From contig CAMXCT020000252.1 in NCBI GenBank assembly GCA_947184155.2, forward strand, positions 216,855-280,854: 64,000 bases of DNA, read 5' to 3'. Positions 31,811 to 64,000 of this stretch are shown one piece after another; position 1 is the stretch's first letter; each line of letters opens with the position of its first letter. This DNA comes from Cladocopium goreaui (lineage: Eukaryota > Sar > Dinophyceae > Suessiales > Symbiodiniaceae). The translations under genes were made by a program, and so were the position numbers. The notes below the pieces were generated by a model. That model was given only the letters and a program-made list of their open reading frames with translations. It had not been told where the DNA came from and did not search any database.

Positions 31811-33470
31811 GAGAGAAGGGGCATGTAGCTGTAACAGTTGTTGCCTTGGAGGCCTGCGGAAGCGTTTGGGGGGTTTGAGGCCGGGCAAACGGCAGTCTTG
31901 AACCCCCTGAAAAACAGATGGCAGGGGCATGTAGCTGTAAAAGTTGTTGCCTTGGAGGCTTGCGGAAGCGTTTGGAGGGTTTGAGGCCGGGCAAACGGCA
32001 GTCTTGAACCCCCTGAAAAACAGATGGCAGGGGCATGTAGCTGTAAGAGTTGTTGCCTTGGAGGCCTGCGGGAGGGTTGGAAGCGTTTGGGGGGTTTGAG
32101 GCCGGGCAAACGGCAGTCTTGAACCCCCTGAAAAACAGATGGCAGGGACATGTAGCTGTAAGAGTTGTTGCCTTGGAGGCCTGCAGGAGGGTTGGAAGCG
32201 TTTGGGGGGTTTGAGGGCGGGCAAACGGCAGTCTTGAACCCCCTGAAAAACAGATGGCAGGGGCATGTAGCTGTAAGAGTTGTTGCCTTGGAGGCCTGCG
32301 GGGGTTGGAAGCGTTTGGGGGGTTTGAGGCCGGGCAAACGGCAGTCTTGAACCCCCTGAAAAACAGATGGCAGGGGCATGTAGTAGCTGTAAGAGTTGTT
32401 GCCTTGGAGGCCTGCGGAAGCGTTTGGAGGGTTTGAGGCCGGGCAAACGGCAGTCTTGAACCCCCTGAAAAACAGATGGCAGGGGATGTAGCTGTAAGAG
32501 TTGTTGCCTTGGAGGCCTGCGGAAGGGTTGGAAGCGTTTGGGGGGTTTGAGGGCGGGCAAACGGCAGTCTTGAACCCCCTGAAAAACAGATGGCAGGGGC
32601 ATGTAGTAGCTGTAAGAGTTGTTGCCTTGGAGGCCTGCGGAGGGTTGGAAGCGTTTGGGGGGTTTGAGGGCGGGCAAACGGCAGTCTTGAACCCCCTGAA
32701 AAACAGATGGCAGGGGCATGTAGCTGTAAGAGTTGTTGCCTTGGAGGCCTGCGGGAGGGTTGGAAGCGTTTGGGGGGTTTGAGGGCGGGCAAACGGCAGT
32801 CTTGAACCCCCTGAAAAACAGATGGCAGGGGCATGTAGCTGTAAGAGTTGTTGCCTTGGAGGCCTGCGGAAGCGTTTGGGGGGTTTGAGGGCGGGCAAAC
32901 GGCAGTCTTGAACCCCCTGAAAAACAGATGGCAGGGGCATGTAGCTGTAAGAGTTGTTGCCTTGGAGGCCTGCGGGAGGGTTGGAAGCGTTTGGGGGGTT
33001 TGAGGGCGGGCAAACGGCAGTCTTGAACCCCCTGAAAAACAGATGGCAGGGGCATGTAGCTGTAAGAGTTGTTGCCTTGGAGGCCTGCGGAGGGTTGGAA
33101 GCGTTTGGAGGGGTTTGAGGCCGGGCAAACGGCAGTCTTGAACCCCCTGAAAAACAGATGGCAGGGGCATGTAGCTGTAAGTCTTGAACCCCCGCAAAAA
33201 CAGATGGTAGGGGCATGTAGCTGTAAGAGTTGTTGCCTTGGAGGCCTGCGGGAAGGTGCGGAAGCGTTTTGGGGGTTTGAGGGCGGGCAAACGGCAGTCT
33301 TGAACCCCCTGAAAAACAGATGGCAGGGGCATGTAGTAGCTGTAAGAGTTGTTGCCTTGGAGGCCTGCGGAAGCATTTGGAGGGTTTGAGGCCGGGCAAA
33401 CGGCAGTCTTGAACGTCCTGAAAAACAGATGGCAGGGGCATGTAGGTGTAAGAGTTCGGCAGGAGCATGT
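31811..33470. repeat. Minisatellite of about 105-125 bp units, about 15 copies
   Basis: The core GGGCATGTAGCTGTAAGAG, then TTGCCTTGGAGGC, GTTTGGGGGGTTTGAGG, GGGCAAACGGCAGTCTTGAA and AAAAACAGATGGCAG recurs about fifteen times with unit-length changes caused mainly by presence or absence of a GAGGGTTGGAAGC insert. All three minus-strand frames stay open for 570-620 codons. It lies between the vWA exon ending at 31483 and the exon at 33679, so it is probably intronic. Confidence 0.9.
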
Positions 33471-55760: not shown

Positions 55761-57925
55761 AGGCCTGCCCCTGCACCAGCACCGGCACCAGCACTGGCAC
55801 CAGCACCGGCACCAATCCCGCCGGCAGCACCTGGAGTGCCCGCTGCGCCAGGGCCCAAAGGAACGCAGGACTGAACATCAGAGAGCTGGAGGGATGTGCT
55901 GCATTTGGCAAGGTAAGAATAGATAAGAAACACTTGCTACAGTATTGCATGCTATTGCTATTGCTTTCAACTTCTACAGTAGCGGACGAACTCTTGGACT
56001 GAATGTCAAAAAGACAAGTACCTGAAACTAGATTGGGACACTGTGACTGAAAATCTGGCCATCTATCAGACTTTAGAGCAGTCTTTGTTTGGTCTTCAGA
56101 GTGTAGGCATCCTGCAAAGCAGCGCCATTCTACTTGTGTTCTGGTTTTGAGCGGAGACTAGCAGAGGATTAGCAGAGACTCATCTGCTTGCCTAGTCCTC
56201 TTTTTTTTTTGTTTTTTTCCCAGACCTCAACTTGATATTCATATGTGCCTATTCTCTTTCTAGCAGTCAAGGCCTGCCCCGGCACCAGCACTGGCACCAG
56301 CACCGGCACCAATCCCACCGGCAGCACCTGGAGTGCCCGCTGCGCCAGGGCCCAAAGGAATGAAGGACTGAACATCAGAGAGCTGGAGGGATGTGCTGCA
56401 TTTGGCAAGGTGAAAATAGATCAGAAACACTTGCTATTGCATGCTATTGCATGCTATTGCTATTGCCTTCAGCTTCTACAGTAGCGGACGAACTCTTGGA
56501 CTGAATGTCAAAAAGACAAGTACCTGAAACTAGATTGGGACACTGTGACTGAAAATCTGGTCATCTAGTTCAGACTTTAGAGCAGTCTTCGGTATTCAGA
56601 GTGTAGGCATCCTGCAAACCAGCGCCATTCTACTTGTTTTCCGGTTTTGAGCGGAGACTAGCAGAGGATTAGCAGAGACTCATCTGCTTGCCTAGTCCTC
56701 TTTTTTTTTGTTTTTTTCCCAGACCTCAACTTGATATTCATATGTGCCTATTCTCTTTCTAGCAGTCAAGGCCTGCCCCGGCACCAGCACTGGCACCAGC
56801 ACCGGCACCAATCCCGCCGGCAGCACCTGGAGTGCCCGCTGCGCCAGGGCCCAAAGGAACGCAGGACTGAACATCAGAGAGCTGGAGGGATGTGCTGCAT
56901 TTGGCAAGGTGAAAATAGATAAGAAAGACTTGCTATTGCATGCTATTGCATGCTATTGCTATTGCTTTCAACTTCTACAGTAGCGGACGAACTCTTGGAC
57001 TGAATGTCAAAAAGACAAGTACCTGAAACTAGATTGGGACACTGTGACTGAAAATCTGGTCATCTAGTTCAGACTTTAGAGCAGTCTTTGGTCTTCAGAG
57101 TGTAGGCATCCTGCAAAGCAGCGCCATTCTACTTGTGTTCTGGTTTTGAGCGGAGACTAGCAGAGGATTAGCAGAGACTCATCTGCTTGCCTAGTCCTCT
57201 TTTTTTTTGTTTTTTTCCCAGACCTCAACTTGATATTCATATGTGCCTATTCTCTTTCTAGCAGTCAAGGCCTGCCCCGGCACCAGCACTGGCACCAGCA
57301 CCGGCACCAATCCCGCCGGCAGCACCTGGAGTGCCCGCTGCGCCAGGGCCCAAAGGAACGCAGGACTGAACATCAGAGAGCTGGAGGGATGTGCTGCATT
57401 TGGCAAGGTAAGAATAGATAAGAAAGACTTGCTACAGTATTGCATGCTATTGCTATTGCTTTCAACTTCTACAGTAGCGGACGAACTCTTGGACTGAATG
57501 TCAAAAAGACAAGTACCTGAAACTAGATTGGGACACTGTGACTGAAAATCTGGCCATCTATCAGACTTTAGAGCAGTCTTCGGTATTCAGAGTGTAGGCA
57601 TACTGCAAACCAGCGCCATTCTACTTGTTTTCCGGTTTTGAGTGGAGACTAGCAGAGGATTAGCAGAGACTCATCTGCTTGCCTAGTCCTTTTTTTTTTT
57701 TGTTTTTTTTCCCAGACCTCAACTTGATATTCATATGTGCCTATTCTCTTTCTAGCAGTCAAGGCCTGCCCCGGCACCAGCACCGGCACCAGCACCGGCA
57801 CCAATCCCGCCGGCAGCACCTGGAGTGCCCGCTGCGCCAGGGCCCAAAGGAATGAAGAATCGAACTGATCGAATGGATCTAACATGATCTAACATCAGGA
57901 AAGCTGGAGGAATGCGCTGCCATGG
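55761..57925 (+). repeat. Tandem array of about 500-bp units, each carrying an exon with splice signals
   Basis: A core beginning AGGCCTGCCCC recurs at 55761, 56270, 56768, 57268 and 57760 (spacing 509, 498, 500, 492). Each unit contains a GCACCAGCACCGGC microsatellite-like exon that ends in GGCAAG|GTAAGAATAG or GGCAAG|GTGAAAATAG, an acceptor TTCAACTTCTACAG before TAGCGGACGAACTC, and a second acceptor after a long T-tract, TTCTCTTTCTAG before CAGTCAAGG. The exon is open in two frames, one Ala/Pro-rich (APAPAPIPPAAPGVPAAPG) and one ending in LNIRELEGCAAFGK. Units differ by few substitutions and T-run length. The last unit diverges near 57863 and ends about 57925, next to the retroelement block. 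Confidence 0.85.
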
Positions 57926-58046
57926 GCAGCATTGCATGAGAGCACACATGTGCATAGGAACATGGGGAGGTAGTGCTGAACTGCCAACGGTGCAGCTACA
58001 GAGGCTCAAATAGCCCAAAGCAAGGTCCAGATAGGTCACGTCAGCC

Positions 58047-58622
58047 ATGGCTGCACTGGCATTGTCCCTCATGGAGAGGGTGGCAGACGCGCAGCTGGCG
58101 CGCAACACCATCTTTCCGGACAACGCCACCAGCCCCGTAGTGGGCCTACTGCTGATGGCAGCCACTTCAGCGCTGGACCACTGGACGCTATGCGGCAACA
58201 ACCCAGTTCGGCACCTGAGTCTGACTCTTGTCCAGATGATGGCCATCATTGGCCCCTTAGCCTGTGAGTCGACAGCGGCCATGGCAGAGGGGGACTTTGT
58301 ATGGACAGAGGGTCCAGACCATCCCACTGGAGAGGAGGTAGCCCGAGAGATGACCGCGCTCAGGGCTGAACTGGAACTTGCCACGGATCATATGATTCGT
58401 TGGCGCCTCGCCAAAGACGCCGAATCAGGGACCCGGGCAGACCGGCTCCTCTACTCTGCGGTGCTGGCCATAGAGGAACTTCGCTATTATGACATCTTCC
58501 CGTCCCTCAACCTGATCCAAACGGCCCTGAAAAACTATCAGTGGCGCATGCAGACGGCGCTCCTGGAAAGAACTCAGGACAGGCTTCAGGAAGCCATGAT
58601 GGCTGGCCAGCAGCCCCAGTGA
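58047..58622 (+). CDS. Unknown 191-aa protein, first ORF of the element
   Basis: ATG 58047 (context GTCAGCCATGG) to TGA 58620-58622. Composition is that of a real, mostly helical protein: LMERVADAQLARNTIFPDN, a hydrophobic VVGLLLMAATSALDHWTL stretch, EEVAREMTALRAELELATDH and a C-terminal helical TALLERTQDRLQEAMM. No signal peptide, zinc finger or enzyme motif is seen. Codon use is GC-rich like the three ORFs downstream, which is the main reason for placing it in the same element. Its function is unknown; a capsid-accessory or nucleic-acid-binding role would be speculation. Confidence 0.65.
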   Translation: MAALALSLMERVADAQLARNTIFPDNATSPVVGLLLMAATSALDHWTLCGNNPVRHLSLTLVQMMAIIGPLACESTAAMAEGDFVWTEGPDHPTGEEVAREMTALRAELELATDHMIRWRLAKDAESGTRADRLLYSAVLAIEELRYYDIFPSLNLIQTALKNYQWRMQTALLERTQDRLQEAMMAGQQPQ

Positions 58623-59010: not shown

Positions 59011-60720
59011 ATGTCTAATTTAGGAGAGTTGTGGGACTCCCTTCGCAGGGCTGGGCTTGAACAACTTGCCCCTGACCTAGTCCGCCATGGGATCGTCAGC
59101 CTCAACCAGCTGGTGTTGAGGTATGACGCACTGCATGAGGCAGGCATGCCCCATTGGCAATTGGAGGCCATCCTTGCCTCCTCGGGGACCCCGGCAGCAG
59201 GCCCGGGCGCTACCCCGGACACAACAAACCGGATCGATCTTCCGGTGCGTCGCATGGGCAAGAGAGCCTGCTTACAGGCGGCGTTGGAAGCGGCCTTACC
59301 GAACCAGAGGCAACGGTCTTTGCAACTTCTGGACCAAGATGTGTTGGCGAAGTCAACCAACCCAGCAGTCGAAGCTCGAGTCCGAACCTACATGGCCATC
59401 TGCCGTGCTTGGGAGATAGCTGGATTCCCACTGGACGGCAACAATATCAGATGCTTTGGTGCATCGCTCAAAGCGGGTGGGTACCGCAGTGCGGCAGTGT
59501 ACTTTCAGGCCATATGCGGCCACCAACAGAGAGTACTCAAGACACCAGTCCCAGCCATTGTCAAGCTGGGCATCAGAGATTGCATCAGGTCCATCCAACG
59601 TGGGCTTGGCGAGAGCAAGCTCAAGGATGCCTTCAACGGGCTACTTTTAGGAGGCATACAGCCGACCTCAGATGAAGAGCCTTTTTCGTTTGACAATATC
59701 TCCCACTGCCGGGACATGGCCATGATCGGGTTGTGGTTCATGCTCCGTGAGTCTGAAATGGCAAGTGCACGGGCATGCGACATCCGCTTAGATGGCAACG
59801 AAGTCTGTCTGAGCATTCCCATCCACAAGACGGATCAACGAGGACGGTACACAGAACGGTCCTTGACATGCTCCTGCACCGTGAAAATCCACGGGATGTG
59901 TGTTTGGCACAGTGCCGAACGTCACCTGGTCCGACTGGAAGCCCTCGTCAATGGAGGCTCACGGCAACACCTTCCACTGTTTCCAGATTCAGACGGACGC
60001 ACAGCATCCAAGAGCACCTTCATTGAAGCGGTTCGAAGAGTCATAGCAAGAACGGGAACTTCACTCACACGCCCAGGTCCAGAGGGGCAAGAGACACAGA
60101 GATACCACGGCCACGTGCTCCGGATCTCAGGTGCACAGATGCTGTCGAGCTCTGGGGTCGAACTCTCCTTGATCCAGTTGCTCGGGAGGTGGACCAGTAC
60201 AGCCGTACTGCGCTACACCCAGGACAGCGCCTTGAATAGGGTGCCCCAGATACCCCAACAAGTGTTGCAAGACGATGCGGCTGGCACATGCAAACTACAA
60301 CTACAAGTGGTTCAGGGAGCCGGCAAGGCATCATCGAGCCAGGCGTCGCCTCAACCGGCTGCACCCGCAGCCAGACCCAAGGCCCTGGCAGCAGCAGTCA
60401 GAGGCTTGAAAGCTGAGCTCGAACAAGTGAAGCAGGCCGTGCAGGCGCCTGCACAAACATATGTTTTCCGCCCAAGGGCCAGAATCCTACACAAAGCCTC
60501 ATATCATGAGGACAGCAATGAACCCGTCAAATGGCGGACACCGTGTGGCTGGAACTATGGCAGTCGCACATTTTTGAGAACGTCCAACGAGTTTGACGGA
60601 GCCAGACGTTGTAGGAAGTGTTTTAACCTGAGCGAAGACTCAAGCTCAGATAGCAGTGACGGGTCCTCAGGCCTCACTGATTTAGCCAGCTCCTCTGCAA
60701 GCAGCGCAGAGGCAGACTAG
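59011..60720 (+). CDS. Tyrosine recombinase (YR) with C-terminal Cys motif
   Basis: From the ATG at 59011 (569 residues) the phage-integrase fold is clear: an N-terminal SAM-like helical part (about 100-200, VEARVRTYMAICRAWEIAGF), box I Arg246 in LWFMLRESEM, Lys273 in IHKTDQRG, H368-x-x-R371 in YHGHVLRISGAQML, GRW at 392-394 in IQLLGRWTS, and nucleophile Tyr402 in LRYTQDS. All five catalytic positions are present, so the enzyme may be active in DNA strand exchange. After about residue 430 an Ala/Gln-rich linker leads to a small Cys-rich segment (PCGWNYG ... RCRKCFN) and an acidic Ser/Asp tail. The frame extends 20 codons upstream of the ATG, but that part lacks an ATG and looks non-coding. 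YRs of DIRS, Ngaro or Crypton elements are the nearest relatives by type. Confidence 0.85.
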   Translation: MSNLGELWDSLRRAGLEQLAPDLVRHGIVSLNQLVLRYDALHEAGMPHWQLEAILASSGTPAAGPGATPDTTNRIDLPVRRMGKRACLQAALEAALPNQRQRSLQLLDQDVLAKSTNPAVEARVRTYMAICRAWEIAGFPLDGNNIRCFGASLKAGGYRSAAVYFQAICGHQQRVLKTPVPAIVKLGIRDCIRSIQRGLGESKLKDAFNGLLLGGIQPTSDEEPFSFDNISHCRDMAMIGLWFMLRESEMASARACDIRLDGNEVCLSIPIHKTDQRGRYTERSLTCSCTVKIHGMCVWHSAERHLVRLEALVNGGSRQHLPLFPDSDGRTASKSTFIEAVRRVIARTGTSLTRPGPEGQETQRYHGHVLRISGAQMLSSSGVELSLIQLLGRWTSTAVLRYTQDSALNRVPQIPQQVLQDDAAGTCKLQLQVVQGAGKASSSQASPQPAAPAARPKALAAAVRGLKAELEQVKQAVQAPAQTYVFRPRARILHKASYHEDSNEPVKWRTPCGWNYGSRTFLRTSNEFDGARRCRKCFNLSEDSSSDSSDGSSGLTDLASSSASSAEAD

Positions 60721-61010
60721 GCGGCTCCAGCAGGCGAGCTGACCACATGCGGAGATGGAAAAACAAAGCGGCCACAACATATTTCACATTTCTCACGTGC
60801 ATTCCAACAATGACAGCGTGACCGAGACATCTTTGAAGTTTATTTGTGTTCAGTTTCATGGTCATGCCTCTCATGCCGGATTGTTTCCCATGTTTGCTTC
60901 ATTTGAAGGTGCAATTGACAGTGCTTCGTTATTTTATTTGCTGATTTGATGCATTCTGTTTTTCCCTCAGTCTGGCTGAGCACAACCGGTCCCAACGAGA
61001 CTTCACGACC
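60721..61010 (+). promoter_or_regulatory. Spacer with acceptor site before the gag-like ORF
   Basis: A T-rich stretch leads to TTCTGTTTTTCCCTCAG at 60954-60970, a strong pyrimidine tract plus AG, 40 bases before the gag-like ATG. Its composition resembles the spacer at 58860-59010, suggesting that each ORF is expressed from its own (trans-)spliced message. Confidence 0.45.
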
Positions 61011-62219
61011 ATGGTGCTCTCCCTTGCACCCACGTCGCTGGCAGACCTAGCAAGAGACGCGGCGGCCGGCGACATAGTCAACGAATACCTCGACGCTAGA
61101 GGGATCAAGACTCCGGCCACTTTGGCCCTTCTGAGTCGAGACGAAGACAACCTCGACCTCACCCTGATACAGCCTCTCCTGCAGGGCTGGCCTAGACCAG
61201 ATGGCACGACCATCACCGTGCGAGAACAGGACAAGCCCATTGCCAAGGCGGTATTGCTGCACATGTGGATGATGGCCAAGCAGGTATGGGAAGCGACACA
61301 ACATGCAGCCATGCCGAAGGCCACACCGACCCAGAGCACGTCTTCCACGGCAGCCTCAACACCAGCCGAGGACAAGGTCCCCAAGGCACTGGCTCCAGGA
61401 CGTTGGACAGCACTGGTGCAGGAATACCAGTCACAGCAGATCGGAGGCCAAGACCGAGTCTTCCCAGTCCAGGAGTTACTGGGGACAGAAGCTGTCATCG
61501 CCCGGGTCCTACACGAGCATGAGACCAGCAAGAACTATACCCCAGTGTTGCTGGGGGAGCTGATCTCGACCAGGACCTTTCAGGCCAATGGTGAGCCGAA
61601 CCCTCTCGCAAAGAGAGAGCGCAATGTGACCAAGCTCACATTGACAGGTGAGCAACTTGTGGCCACCCCTGAGGAACCGTGGCAACCTCGGAGCGTCCTT
61701 GCCATCCTGGACGGCTTGGCGAGCATTCGATGGTGCTTCATCCTATGCAAGCTGGGCACCGAGCAGGCGGTCCACGCCTTTTTCGATTGGCTGGTCAGGT
61801 TGGTCCGCAGCAGACCACAGAAGACGGACCAGCTTGCGCAGTTCTGGATGACGGTCTCCTGGAAGCTGGCCCTTGAGATGAGAGGAGGCCGCACGTTCAT
61901 GGAGGCCACGGCGCTCATCATGAAGGACTACGATTCTTTCACTGAGTGCATGAGCCGTGAACCCAGCCAGACCACCAAGAAGCCCATGCCATCAGCCCCT
62001 GCCAAGGCTGAAACCAAGGGTTATGGAAAAGGTAGCACAAAGTCAGGGAAGGGCACGAGACCTTCTCCTTACAGCCGCCCTACAAAACAGGGGACATGGC
62101 ACAAGGACGACGGCTATGACAGAGCCGCCCACCCTTGGCAGGGATCGCAGAAGCAGGATGACAAGCCGAAGTGGCAGAAGGAGCCCTGGTCTTCCGATTG
62201 GAAGACGCCGTCCAAATAG
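61011..62219 (+). CDS. gag: Gag-like structural protein, 402 aa
   Basis: ATG 61011 to TAG 62217-62219. It has a largely helical N-terminal two thirds (LADLARDAAAGDIVNEYLDA, LLHMWMMAKQVWEA, LAILDGLASIRWCFILCKLG, HAFFDWLVRLVRS) with a Ser/Thr/Pro-rich linker around 105-125, and a strongly basic, Gly/Lys/Ser/Trp-rich C-terminus (about 325-402, KGYGKGSTKSGKG, TWHKDDGYDR, KWQKEPWSSDWK). This layout, a capsid-like helical domain followed by a basic nucleic-acid-binding tail, is typical of Gag, though no CCHC knuckle is present. Position directly before the methyltransferase polyprotein, in the same frame, supports the call. It is not recognisable by sequence alone. Confidence 0.6.
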   Translation: MVLSLAPTSLADLARDAAAGDIVNEYLDARGIKTPATLALLSRDEDNLDLTLIQPLLQGWPRPDGTTITVREQDKPIAKAVLLHMWMMAKQVWEATQHAAMPKATPTQSTSSTAASTPAEDKVPKALAPGRWTALVQEYQSQQIGGQDRVFPVQELLGTEAVIARVLHEHETSKNYTPVLLGELISTRTFQANGEPNPLAKRERNVTKLTLTGEQLVATPEEPWQPRSVLAILDGLASIRWCFILCKLGTEQAVHAFFDWLVRLVRSRPQKTDQLAQFWMTVSWKLALEMRGGRTFMEATALIMKDYDSFTECMSREPSQTTKKPMPSAPAKAETKGYGKGSTKSGKGTRPSPYSRPTKQGTWHKDDGYDRAAHPWQGSQKQDDKPKWQKEPWSSDWKTPSK

Positions 62220-62237
62220 GGACAACACGGGGTCATG
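62217..62237 (+). promoter_or_regulatory. Single in-frame TAG between gag-like and methyltransferase ORFs (candidate readthrough site)
   Basis: The frames at 61011 and 62235 are identical modulo three. Between them lie only TAG GGA CAA CAC GGG GTC and then ATG. The stop followed by G (TAGGG) is a leaky context of the kind used for gag-pol readthrough in gammaretroviruses. Reinitiation at ATG 62235 is the alternative. Confidence 0.55.
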
Positions 62238-64000
62238 AGACAGGTGGATCTCGTGACACCCGACAGCACTGGGTACCCGCCACCCAGCCAACCACCAACG
62301 GCCGAGCGAGGCCAAGTTTTCCAGAAGTTAGATGAGGAGGTCATCCTTGTCAGCTGTTTCGACGGCATTGGGTCTGCTGCTTTGATCCTCAAAGGGCTGG
62401 TAGCAGCCATTTCGCTGCACATTGTATGGGAGGTGGACAGCGATTGTATGGAAGTGCTGAAGGCCCGTCACCCAGAGGCGGTGACCCGGGGTGATTTTCT
62501 CAAAGATGACCCTGATGAGGTCGCCAGAGTGATACACCGCCATGATCCTGAGGGCACCAAGCTGGTGCTCTTCGCAGCTGCTCCCCCATGCCCTGACTTC
62601 TCACGCATTCGTGCAGATGCACCAGGCTCAGCAGGTGAAGAAGGCCACAAATTCACAGCATACTGTGAATTTATCAGGAAGGTGGAGATGGGCATACCTC
62701 ACAGGAGGATAGGCCACCTTACCGAGAACGTGGTGATGGACAAGGGAGAGGCTGACCATTTCTCCAGCCTCCTGGACTGCAATGCGATCTTGGCTGACGC
62801 GCAAGACTTCGGCCTCATCAACCGCCCTCGTTTGTGGTGGACAAGAGTGGACTGGAGCAGCATCCGGACAAATCCCATCACAGGGAAACGGTTACGGTGG
62901 TCCAAGAGCCAAAAATACCACCGTCTCCATCACGACACCACGTTCCAGGAAGAGACGGATCTCCAGCTGGAAGGCCTTCGACTTCACAATGCGGTGGCAT
63001 CTCATGACAAGCGCATCCCGTGTCTGACAACTCCAGCACCATCGGACGATGGCAGACCAGCGCCGAAGAAGCTGAAAGGGAAGATAGACCCTGAACAGAA
63101 GGCGCGATGGATGAATGATGGGCGGCTATTTGCTCCATGGCAATACTCCAAGGAGGCTCTTCTACATGCAGCCGATGGGAGCATGGTGGTCCCGCCCCCG
63201 GAAGCCAAGGAACAGCTGCACCAGCTGCCGAAATGGTATACGTCCGTCCCGGGAGTGTCGGAGAAAGCCAGACACAGAATGCTGGCAAACGGTTGGCACA
63301 TTGGATCAGCACGGTTCATCATGATGCTGGTCCTCCAATCCATGTTGATGGTGACCGCTTCGTCACCCGTGCCACAGCCACGGCACACCGCGCTTCAGAC
63401 CATGCTGACCTTCCTGCAGCCAGCGACACCGCACCTAGGCCCAGGGACATGGCCCAGCGAAGCAACGTGCGTGGCCCAAGCCGGGTCGATGTGGGAGCAT
63501 TGGCAGATGGCCGTGGCTTCCAGTCACCCAGTACAACGGCCCCCTCGGCTGGAGCCGGGGCTACAGCAATGTGTGGACTTCCGGGGCATCATTGGAGGCA
63601 GCCTCGCACGCATGAGGACAGAGATAGTGGACGAGATCAAACAGTGGGCCCTCGACAGCATGGATGCGACCGAGACCTGGTGGAAGTCACTTCCACCTCA
63701 CGTGGCCCAGGTTTACTTCAACAAAGACCACAACCAAATCTCACAGATTCCACTTCTGTTGCGATTGCTCGACCTGGCCAAGATGCCAGGCCTTCCAGAG
63801 CTCACAGAAGACCTCCAGTCAGGGTTCCAGGTGACTGGTGAATTGCATGCGGGAGCGGGCTGGCTCCCACGGGCTGACAGCAAGTATGAGTTCCCAACGT
63901 CGGCCGAGACCTTCATGAAGCACAACCAACACTATACCAGAGCCAAACTGCGCAGCAAACGCGTGGATCCAGAATGGTCATCCATGTTGGATGAACTGCG
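62235..64000 (+). CDS. C5 cytosine DNA methyltransferase fused to retroelement polyprotein (partial at 3' end)
   Basis: The frame runs 588 codons from ATG 62235 without a stop to the window edge. C5-methyltransferase motifs are present in order: I, VSCFDGIGSA (39-48); II, WEVDSDC (65-71); IV, AAPPCPDFSRIRAD (115-128) with catalytic Cys119; VI, TENVV (163-167); VIII, QDFGLINRPRLWW (190-202); a target-recognition stretch of about 140 residues; and IX/X, VPGVSEKARHRMLANGWHIG (338-357). FDGI and ENV resemble the DNMT3-type branch. All catalytic elements look intact, so CpG-type methylation of the element or host DNA is plausible. After about 375 the protein has DEIKQWALDSM, then LPELTEDLQSGFQVTGELHA and GAGWLPRADSKYEFP, resembling the region preceding reverse transcriptase in other elements; RT is not reached. 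The start could instead be the upstream gag ORF by readthrough. Confidence 0.85.
   Translation, partial: MRQVDLVTPDSTGYPPPSQPPTAERGQVFQKLDEEVILVSCFDGIGSAALILKGLVAAISLHIVWEVDSDCMEVLKARHPEAVTRGDFLKDDPDEVARVIHRHDPEGTKLVLFAAAPPCPDFSRIRADAPGSAGEEGHKFTAYCEFIRKVEMGIPHRRIGHLTENVVMDKGEADHFSSLLDCNAILADAQDFGLINRPRLWWTRVDWSSIRTNPITGKRLRWSKSQKYHRLHHDTTFQEETDLQLEGLRLHNAVASHDKRIPCLTTPAPSDDGRPAPKKLKGKIDPEQKARWMNDGRLFAPWQYSKEALLHAADGSMVVPPPEAKEQLHQLPKWYTSVPGVSEKARHRMLANGWHIGSARFIMMLVLQSMLMVTASSPVPQPRHTALQTMLTFLQPATPHLGPGTWPSEATCVAQAGSMWEHWQMAVASSHPVQRPPRLEPGLQQCVDFRGIIGGSLARMRTEIVDEIKQWALDSMDATETWWKSLPPHVAQVYFNKDHNQISQIPLLLRLLDLAKMPGLPELTEDLQSGFQVTGELHAGAGWLPRADSKYEFPTSAETFMKHNQHYTRAKLRSKRVDPEWSSMLDEL

Follow-up and report, generated by a model that had tools for sequence, protein, structure and literature searches.

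A covarying hairpin behind an in-phase UAG suggests readthrough expression of the DNMT3-like Pol of a DIRS retrotransposon in Cladocopium goreaui

The last 64 kb of contig CAMXCT020000252.1 (C252) of the dinoflagellate Cladocopium goreaui, 64,000 nucleotides referred to below as the window, contain the left part of a retrotransposon whose Pol begins with a DNA cytosine-C5-methyltransferase (Table 1). Split direct repeats, together with open reading frames (ORFs) for a tyrosine recombinase and a Gag-like protein, classify the element from its sequence as a DIRS retrotransposon of the SymbioDIRS-Dnmt3 kind (de Mendoza 2018, PMC5890265). This kind of methyltransferase-bearing element is already published and the methyltransferase itself is not new. 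What appears to be new is its expression through the junction between the Gag-like ORF and Pol, where a UAG codon is followed by a hairpin. Three features go beyond a first-pass annotation, which had been made from the letters of the window alone: the recombinase, a Gag-like ORF that shares the phase of Pol, and the junction with its UAG and hairpin. Contig C252 ends exactly at the last base of the window, leaving the reverse transcriptase (RT) outside; the right half of the element was therefore read from other copies in the genome (1.17 Gb, 6202 contigs).

Table 1. Features of the element in the window (positions are those of the window)
Feature	Position	Strand	Basis or remark
A1, the left terminal repeat (86 bp), where the element starts	57937..58022	+	copy homology starts here
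ORF A, 191 amino acids, no assigned function	58047..58622	+	codon differences between copies
Tyrosine recombinase ORF, 569 amino acids, ends with TAG	59011..60720	+	PF00589 and Cre-type structure matches
Gag-like ORF, 402 codons	61011..62216	+	open frame; named by position
UAG ending Gag, in phase with Pol	62217..62219	+	read in the window and other loci
8-nt purine-rich spacer, GGACAACA	62220..62227	+	GGACARCN across lineages
Proposed readthrough stimulator: hairpin of 13 bp, loop of 8 nt, one bulged A	62228..62262	+	fold, covariation, scan control
Pol, N-terminal part	62220..63998	+	open from stop to stop, 593 codons; runs to contig end
DNMT3-type C5-methyltransferase domain	62340..63332	+	structure searches, motifs; catalytic Cys codon TGC at 62589-62591
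Pol linker toward RT and RNase H (both past the contig end)	63333..64000	+	read against sibling copies

Pol of the element and its copies

Counted from the ATG at 62235 the Pol frame has 588 codons. It contains the C5-methyltransferase motifs in order, with the Cys of PPC at codon 124 of the stop-to-stop frame and residue 119 from the ATG, in agreement with the 588-codon frame and Cys119 of the first-pass annotation. The comparison with the Pfam DNA_methylase profile proposed there did give a match, but a weak one (E value 0.0054) under the curated cut-off. When solved structures were searched with a single sequence, all 29 sequences found at E ≤ 1 were DNMT3A, 3B or 3C (best E value 1.6e-8). 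A profile made from eight sequences of diverged relatives matched DNMT3A with an E value of 2.4e-26, the C-terminal motifs being matched in a second stretch, and also DRM2 (2.2e-8), HaeIII methylase (5.7e-7) and DNMT2 (4.5e-4); DNMT1 was not found among the 53 solved-structure matches of this profile. Invariant in the alignment of the eight were Phe/Gly of motif I, Glu of motif II, PC, ENV and RPR, named by what we take to be the usual motif numbers. Judged by similarity to solved structures, and not by a tree, the methyltransferase belongs with DNMT3.

In the sibling copies on contigs C700, C2327, C25 and C857 the methyltransferase frame runs on through the linker to RT (YVDD) and an RNase H-like region, both read by eye. 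Neither a stop nor a host gene follows there, the outcomes that the first-pass annotation had named as refuting. The extension to the right that had been suggested for the window could thus be carried out in these copies. RVT_1 was matched in the homologues P0009, P0014, P0020, P0029 and P0032 with E values of 0.01 to 5e-5, under the cut-off; in P0009, P0014 and P0020 (0.01 to 1e-4) this match lies behind a methyltransferase-like part, and P0032 has both methyltransferase and RVT_1 Pfam matches. These data support the earlier proposal of a methyltransferase inside a retroelement polyprotein, in which it is the N-terminal domain of Pol, followed by RT and the RNase H-like region. The precedent cited there, DNMT-bearing retrotransposons in Symbiodinium, proved right as well (PMC5890265). 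In C857 (L014) a residue of DNMT motif I is changed and one residue is missing before PPC; the RT is still open.

Searching the genome with the Pol protein gave at least 80 matches, the window itself included, a lower bound obtained by scoring 74 of 590 candidates. The four sibling copies are near-identical to the window (98-100% identity) and have open Pol frames of 1170-1198 codons (1194 in C700). The ends of C252 and C700 overlap by 5078 bp, of which 3281 bp are without difference and 1797 bp contain four differences. At three of these the base of the window is unique (C700 = C2327 = C25) and at the fourth that of C700 is unique; other copies are 98.3-98.7% identical. From this comparison C252 and C700 are likely to be one unjoined locus, two very young copies being the possible alternative. 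The few named protein relatives were Symbiodinium records (CCMP2592, KB8) and 'Skav' gene models.

The in-phase UAG and the covarying hairpin

Thirty loci (L010-L039), corresponding to 27 places (L022/L037, L023/L038 and L027/L028 are each two pieces of one element), all have a Gag-related frame upstream of Pol. The sequence TAGGGACARCNCGG was carried by 28 of them and was absent from L033, where the Gag match joins Pol at its residue 109, and from L036. Representing near-identical loci once, the 28 motif-bearing loci were reduced to 13 lineages, whose Pol identity to the window goes down to 32%. In the methyltransferase region the synonymous distance was above 2 or not estimable for 26 of the 28 pairs formed by eight lineages.

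The junction stop was sought as the last in-frame stop before Pol, without presupposing its identity. It was TAG followed by GGACA in 18 of the 20 loci examined, which covered all 13 lineages. The two exceptions were L021, a frame-shifted relative of L019 in which the motif is still there, and L036, in which inspection found the junction deleted. All 13 lineages have Gag and Pol in one frame across the junction, with exactly 8 nt between UAG and the hairpin; UAGGGACA is invariant and TAGGGACA identical across them. Frame changes in L018, L021, L032 and L034 are located elsewhere than at the junction. Expression by frameshifting was ruled out, Gag and Pol being in the same frame at the junction. 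Reassignment of UAG as a sense codon is also unlikely: the recombinase ORF of the same element ends in UAG, hence UAG is a working stop.

The motif TAGGGACARCNCGGGG had 31 exact matches in the whole genome compared with one for the reversed-pattern control. Twenty-eight of the 31 lie before a DNMT-Pol: 27, placed by coordinate comparison, just before DNMT-Pol matches and one (C5833) before a decayed DNMT-Pol. The matches in C172 and C3425 (identical to each other) and in C6140 had no related ORF and were counted as chance. Twelve further motif matches in viral contigs were likewise dismissed as chance, as no significant Gag or Pol similarity accompanied them (one match, E value 0.71), and no relatives were confirmed in viral and prokaryote contigs.

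Among the 13 lineages the sequence of the hairpin and the peptide encoded by it vary, whereas the pairing is kept. Pairing was found in 96.9% of 163 cells; 500 shuffles gave 77.0% (standard deviation 2.0) and sliding of the partner strand 35.7-45.3%. The covariation score was 0.575 versus 0.192 (standard deviation 0.030) for shuffled alignments. Double compensatory changes occur in eight of the 13 pairs, with 32 double-change cells versus 8.7 in shuffles. RNAalifold, given no structure, returned the same 13 pairs and left the UAG outside the duplex. The 16-nt motif by itself led to two more lineages, C879 and C5833, in which 11 and 12 of the 13 pairs are preserved; with the resulting 15 lineages 95.8% of 189 cells pair, the score is 0.613 versus 0.196, and RNAalifold again gave the 13 pairs. 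When the test was restricted to nine or eight representatives, using rows of the first alignment, the pairing and the number of double-change cells were reached by none of 2000 shuffles, and the number of pairs with a change on both sides by 64 and 16 of 2000, respectively.

For a local control, the gag-pol codon alignment of 12 lineages was folded in 190 windows of 60 nt. In this alignment L020 and L037 stood for L019 and L022, and L018, gap-rich rows and windows with fewer than 8 rows were left out. Three windows at the junction had energies of -22.1 to -24.0 kcal/mol and 25-29 double-change cells, and a fourth, which cuts the hairpin, had -8.7 kcal/mol and 23 double-change cells. The best windows away from the junction reached -2.1 kcal/mol and at most 6 double-change cells. 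An Rfam search gave two matches at E ≤ 1, both under the gathering score and neither at the hairpin. At the level of sequence, these observations establish the anatomy of the element, the in-phase UAG and the conserved, covarying hairpin.

Expression of Pol

The element, of about 8.1 kb and of the SymbioDIRS-Dnmt3 kind, very probably makes its Pol, led by the DNMT3-like domain, by programmed readthrough of the UAG. Most ribosomes would stop at the UAG closing the Gag-like ORF, and a minority, assisted by the hairpin and the constant 8-nt spacer, would misread this codon and produce a minor Gag-DNMT-RT-RNase H fusion. We infer, besides the readthrough and its rate, that the Gag part of this fusion would carry DNMT and RT together into the particle, where DNMT would methylate the new cDNA before the recombinase inserts it. 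More tentatively, and with somewhat less than even confidence, we propose a class of dinoflagellate tyrosine recombinase retrotransposons with retrovirus-style UAG readthrough, in which DNMT3 would be made solely as a minor Gag fusion and sealed in the particle with RT, the element's own cDNA being methylated before integration and the host genome spared. The idea of the first-pass annotation that the element methylates its own copies or reshapes the host methylome is to be taken as a hypothesis. Readthrough at this junction would explain in concrete and testable terms how a DNMT carried by a retrotransposon is expressed, in what amount and with which fusion partner, and bears on whether retrotransposon DNMTs act on cDNA in particles or loose on the host genome.

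SymbioDIRS-Dnmt3 is described as having a DNMT3-type domain and RT in the Pol ORF, a separate tyrosine recombinase ORF and A-coding-B-A-B repeats; two tested domains performed de novo CG methylation in yeast, and the authors proposed methylation of cDNA (PMC5890265). In C700, C2327, C25 and C857 the C5-methyltransferase is similarly in the same ORF as RT. The UAG-hairpin junction is added here to that description: a word search of the main text of PMC5890265 found no gag, readthrough or read-through. In murine leukaemia virus (MuLV) Gag and Pol share one frame, and the gag UAG is followed by a purine-rich spacer and a 3' RNA structure, with 5% readthrough (PMC2194720). The UAG, the purine-rich spacer, which here has 8 nt in all 13 lineages, the RNA structure and the common frame are as in MuLV. 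In contrast to MuLV, the structure here is a long bulged hairpin, with a possible pseudoknot, and the host element is a DIRS of a protist. If the proposal is true, readthrough by UAG and RNA structure, known from a retrovirus, extends to DIRS elements of a dinoflagellate.

In-frame gag stops are known in long terminal repeat elements (PMC10085805), and an in-frame stop between ORFs has been described for Tca2, SIRE1, fission yeast Tj1, Tosmo1-3 and Tcry1 (PMC2194720, PMC10085805). These resemble the present element in having two in-phase coding parts with one stop between them, and in the fission yeast elements the stop context is conserved. Tca2, whose arrangement of UGA, 8-nt spacer and 3' RNA structure was called reminiscent of that of MuLV (PMC2194720), and the fission yeast elements differ in using UGA, followed in the latter by CT, and none of those named is a tyrosine recombinase element. 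Gag-like, tyrosine recombinase and RT/RNase H ORFs are shared with DIRS1-like, PAT, Ngaro, VIPER and TATE elements, and split direct repeats with PAT, VIPER and TATE (PMC3266345, PMC6681497). The methyltransferase of DIRS1, unlike that described here, sits after RT/RNase H (PMC3266345, PMC6681497) and is of the adenine type (PMC5890265). The words 'stop codon' and 'readthrough' were not found in the searched text of PMC3266345 and PMC6681497. A description of readthrough in DIRS or dinoflagellate elements was not found in titles and abstracts, the subscription literature being mostly outside the search.

Alternatively, Pol could be translated on its own, by reinitiation, by non-AUG initiation or from a separate trans-spliced mRNA, and the UAG would simply end Gag. 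The window copy has an AUG at 62235, 15 nt after the UAG, which makes separate initiation possible there, and an AUG precedes motif I in four of the 13 lineages (the window, L015, L029 and L032). Database Pol predictions start at or after such AUG codons, and trans-splicing is pervasive in dinoflagellates according to the discussion of PMC5890265. However, in the other nine lineages the first in-frame Met after the UAG lies beyond DNMT motif I, so that starting separately at that AUG would yield a broken enzyme. Moreover, none of the strict phase, the UAG, the 8-nt spacer and the covarying hairpin is needed for reinitiation. The probability of separate translation appears to be small.

We consider it still less probable that splicing or RNA editing takes the stop out of the mRNA. 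This would agree with Gag matches in seven of 76 protein relatives (P0018, P0024, P0043, P0044, P0050, P0056 and P0068), all joined to a Pol part without the junction peptide: GQ[H/L/P]G, which follows the stop, occurs between Gag and Pol in none of the seven. Six of these proteins are EukProt gene models. In P0050, P0056 and P0068, the three inspected closely, the stretches skipped are of different lengths, which is what predictors avoiding a stop would produce, and the position of the UAG outside the duplex also speaks against splicing or editing. The joins are probably gene-prediction artefacts, which the junction stop may explain.

Retroelement RNAs carry packaging structures, and the hairpin could be real but serve RNA packaging or dimerisation, standing beside the stop by accident. 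An accidental position is hard to reconcile with the exact 8-nt distance to UAG and the invariant UAGGGACA in 13 of 13 lineages, and of the three alternatives this seems the least probable. An ordinary host DNMT gene, named as an alternative by the first-pass annotation, or an assembly chimera, compatible with a contig ending inside the element, is already refuted by the copies, which have the whole retroelement context in common: the order Gag-like ORF, UAG, DNMT, RT recurs in all four close copies, and diverged loci again have Gag-UAG-DNMT. The ORF that holds the domain is repeated and intronless and has a tyrosine recombinase and split direct repeats next to it.

Besides the AUG codons before motif I, several points weigh against programmed readthrough. 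All lineages come from one genome, and the covariation shuffles leave the relatedness among lineages in place. With 13 lineages 8 of 500 shuffles reached the observed number of pairs with a change on both sides, and with 15 lineages 68 of 500 did. When 11 sequences were folded singly, the gain over shuffles was modest (z -0.4 to -3.8), and for L017 and L039 a fold other than the hairpin had the minimum energy. A MuLV-like pseudoknot is suggested, as a hint, by pairing of the loop to downstream sequence, for which 6 of 720 permutations of six representatives were as good or better and which is absent in L039. The look-alike junction of Tca2 gave no readthrough in yeast (PMC2194720). Finally, in the four youngest copies constraint is less evident for DNMT than for RT: they differ by 2-10 synonymous and 4-10 non-synonymous changes in DNMT and by 4-27 synonymous and 3-8 non-synonymous changes in RT-RNase H. 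Between lineages the ratio of non-synonymous to synonymous substitution rates in DNMT was 0.07 for the window-L015 and L017-L027 pairs and 0.11-0.29 in the other seven pairs for which it was estimable.

Other parts of the element and neighbouring sequences

The ends of the element were read in C25, C700 and C2327. DNA similarity to the window begins at 57931 in C2327 and at 57937 in C25, and three copies start with TGAGAGCACACATG after unrelated flanks. The 86 bp of A1 were found again at 100% identity near the right end of C25 and C700, where this second copy (A2) is flanked on both sides by a repeat of 118-146 bp, giving the order B1-A2-B2. The length of about 8.1 kb was summed from A1 through B2, with the right part taken from C700 and the pieces measured separately. 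C2327 (L040) ends after B1, without A2-B2, perhaps through repeat recombination or insertion of a shorter cDNA. No target-site duplication was seen by eye at the flanks of C25 and C252/C700.

ORF A had no Pfam match. In comparison with C2327 all four codon differences were synonymous, and in comparison with C25 there were 10 synonymous changes and one nonsense change. As the differences among the three copies are nearly all synonymous, ORF A probably encodes a real protein.

The recombinase ORF matched PF00589 with an E value of 3.3e-5 and 24.2 bits, under the curated 27.1. Among solved structures it matched solely Cre and the Cre-derived Tre (17 sequences), weakly, with E values of 0.022-0.14. 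The residues R...HxxR...W...Y, which we take to be the catalytic motif of tyrosine recombinases, were read by eye from the translation. Compared with C2327 the ORF has 16 synonymous and 7 non-synonymous differences. Its tail (60500-60640) contains Cys residues and is perhaps zinc-finger-like (weak RecR_ZnF match, E value 0.088).

The Gag-like ORF, for which Pfam gave no match, has 402 codons in five lineages (the window, L015, L016, L017 and L029). About 30-40 nt before its AUG there is a CAG followed by nYTGGCYGA (60968-60980 in the window; also in L015, L016, L017 and L027). This site could be a trans-splice acceptor for a Gag-Pol mRNA.

A second element class was encountered among the weaker matches. 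In all five loci examined from these (C4423, C1261, C1001, C2008 and C1779; L063-L067) RT and an RNase H-like region precede DNMT in one open frame, as judged by eye, and no stop was found before DNMT within the approximately 0.85 kb read. Two domain orders of Pol are reported for SymbioDIRS (PMC5890265), and from these frames both seem to be present in this genome.

Two tandem arrays were also noticed in the window. About four units of 499 bp (55782-57852, 96% matches) with intron-like pyrimidine tracts end just to the left of the element, and an array of units of about 115 bp with strong GC skew occupies 31817-33456.

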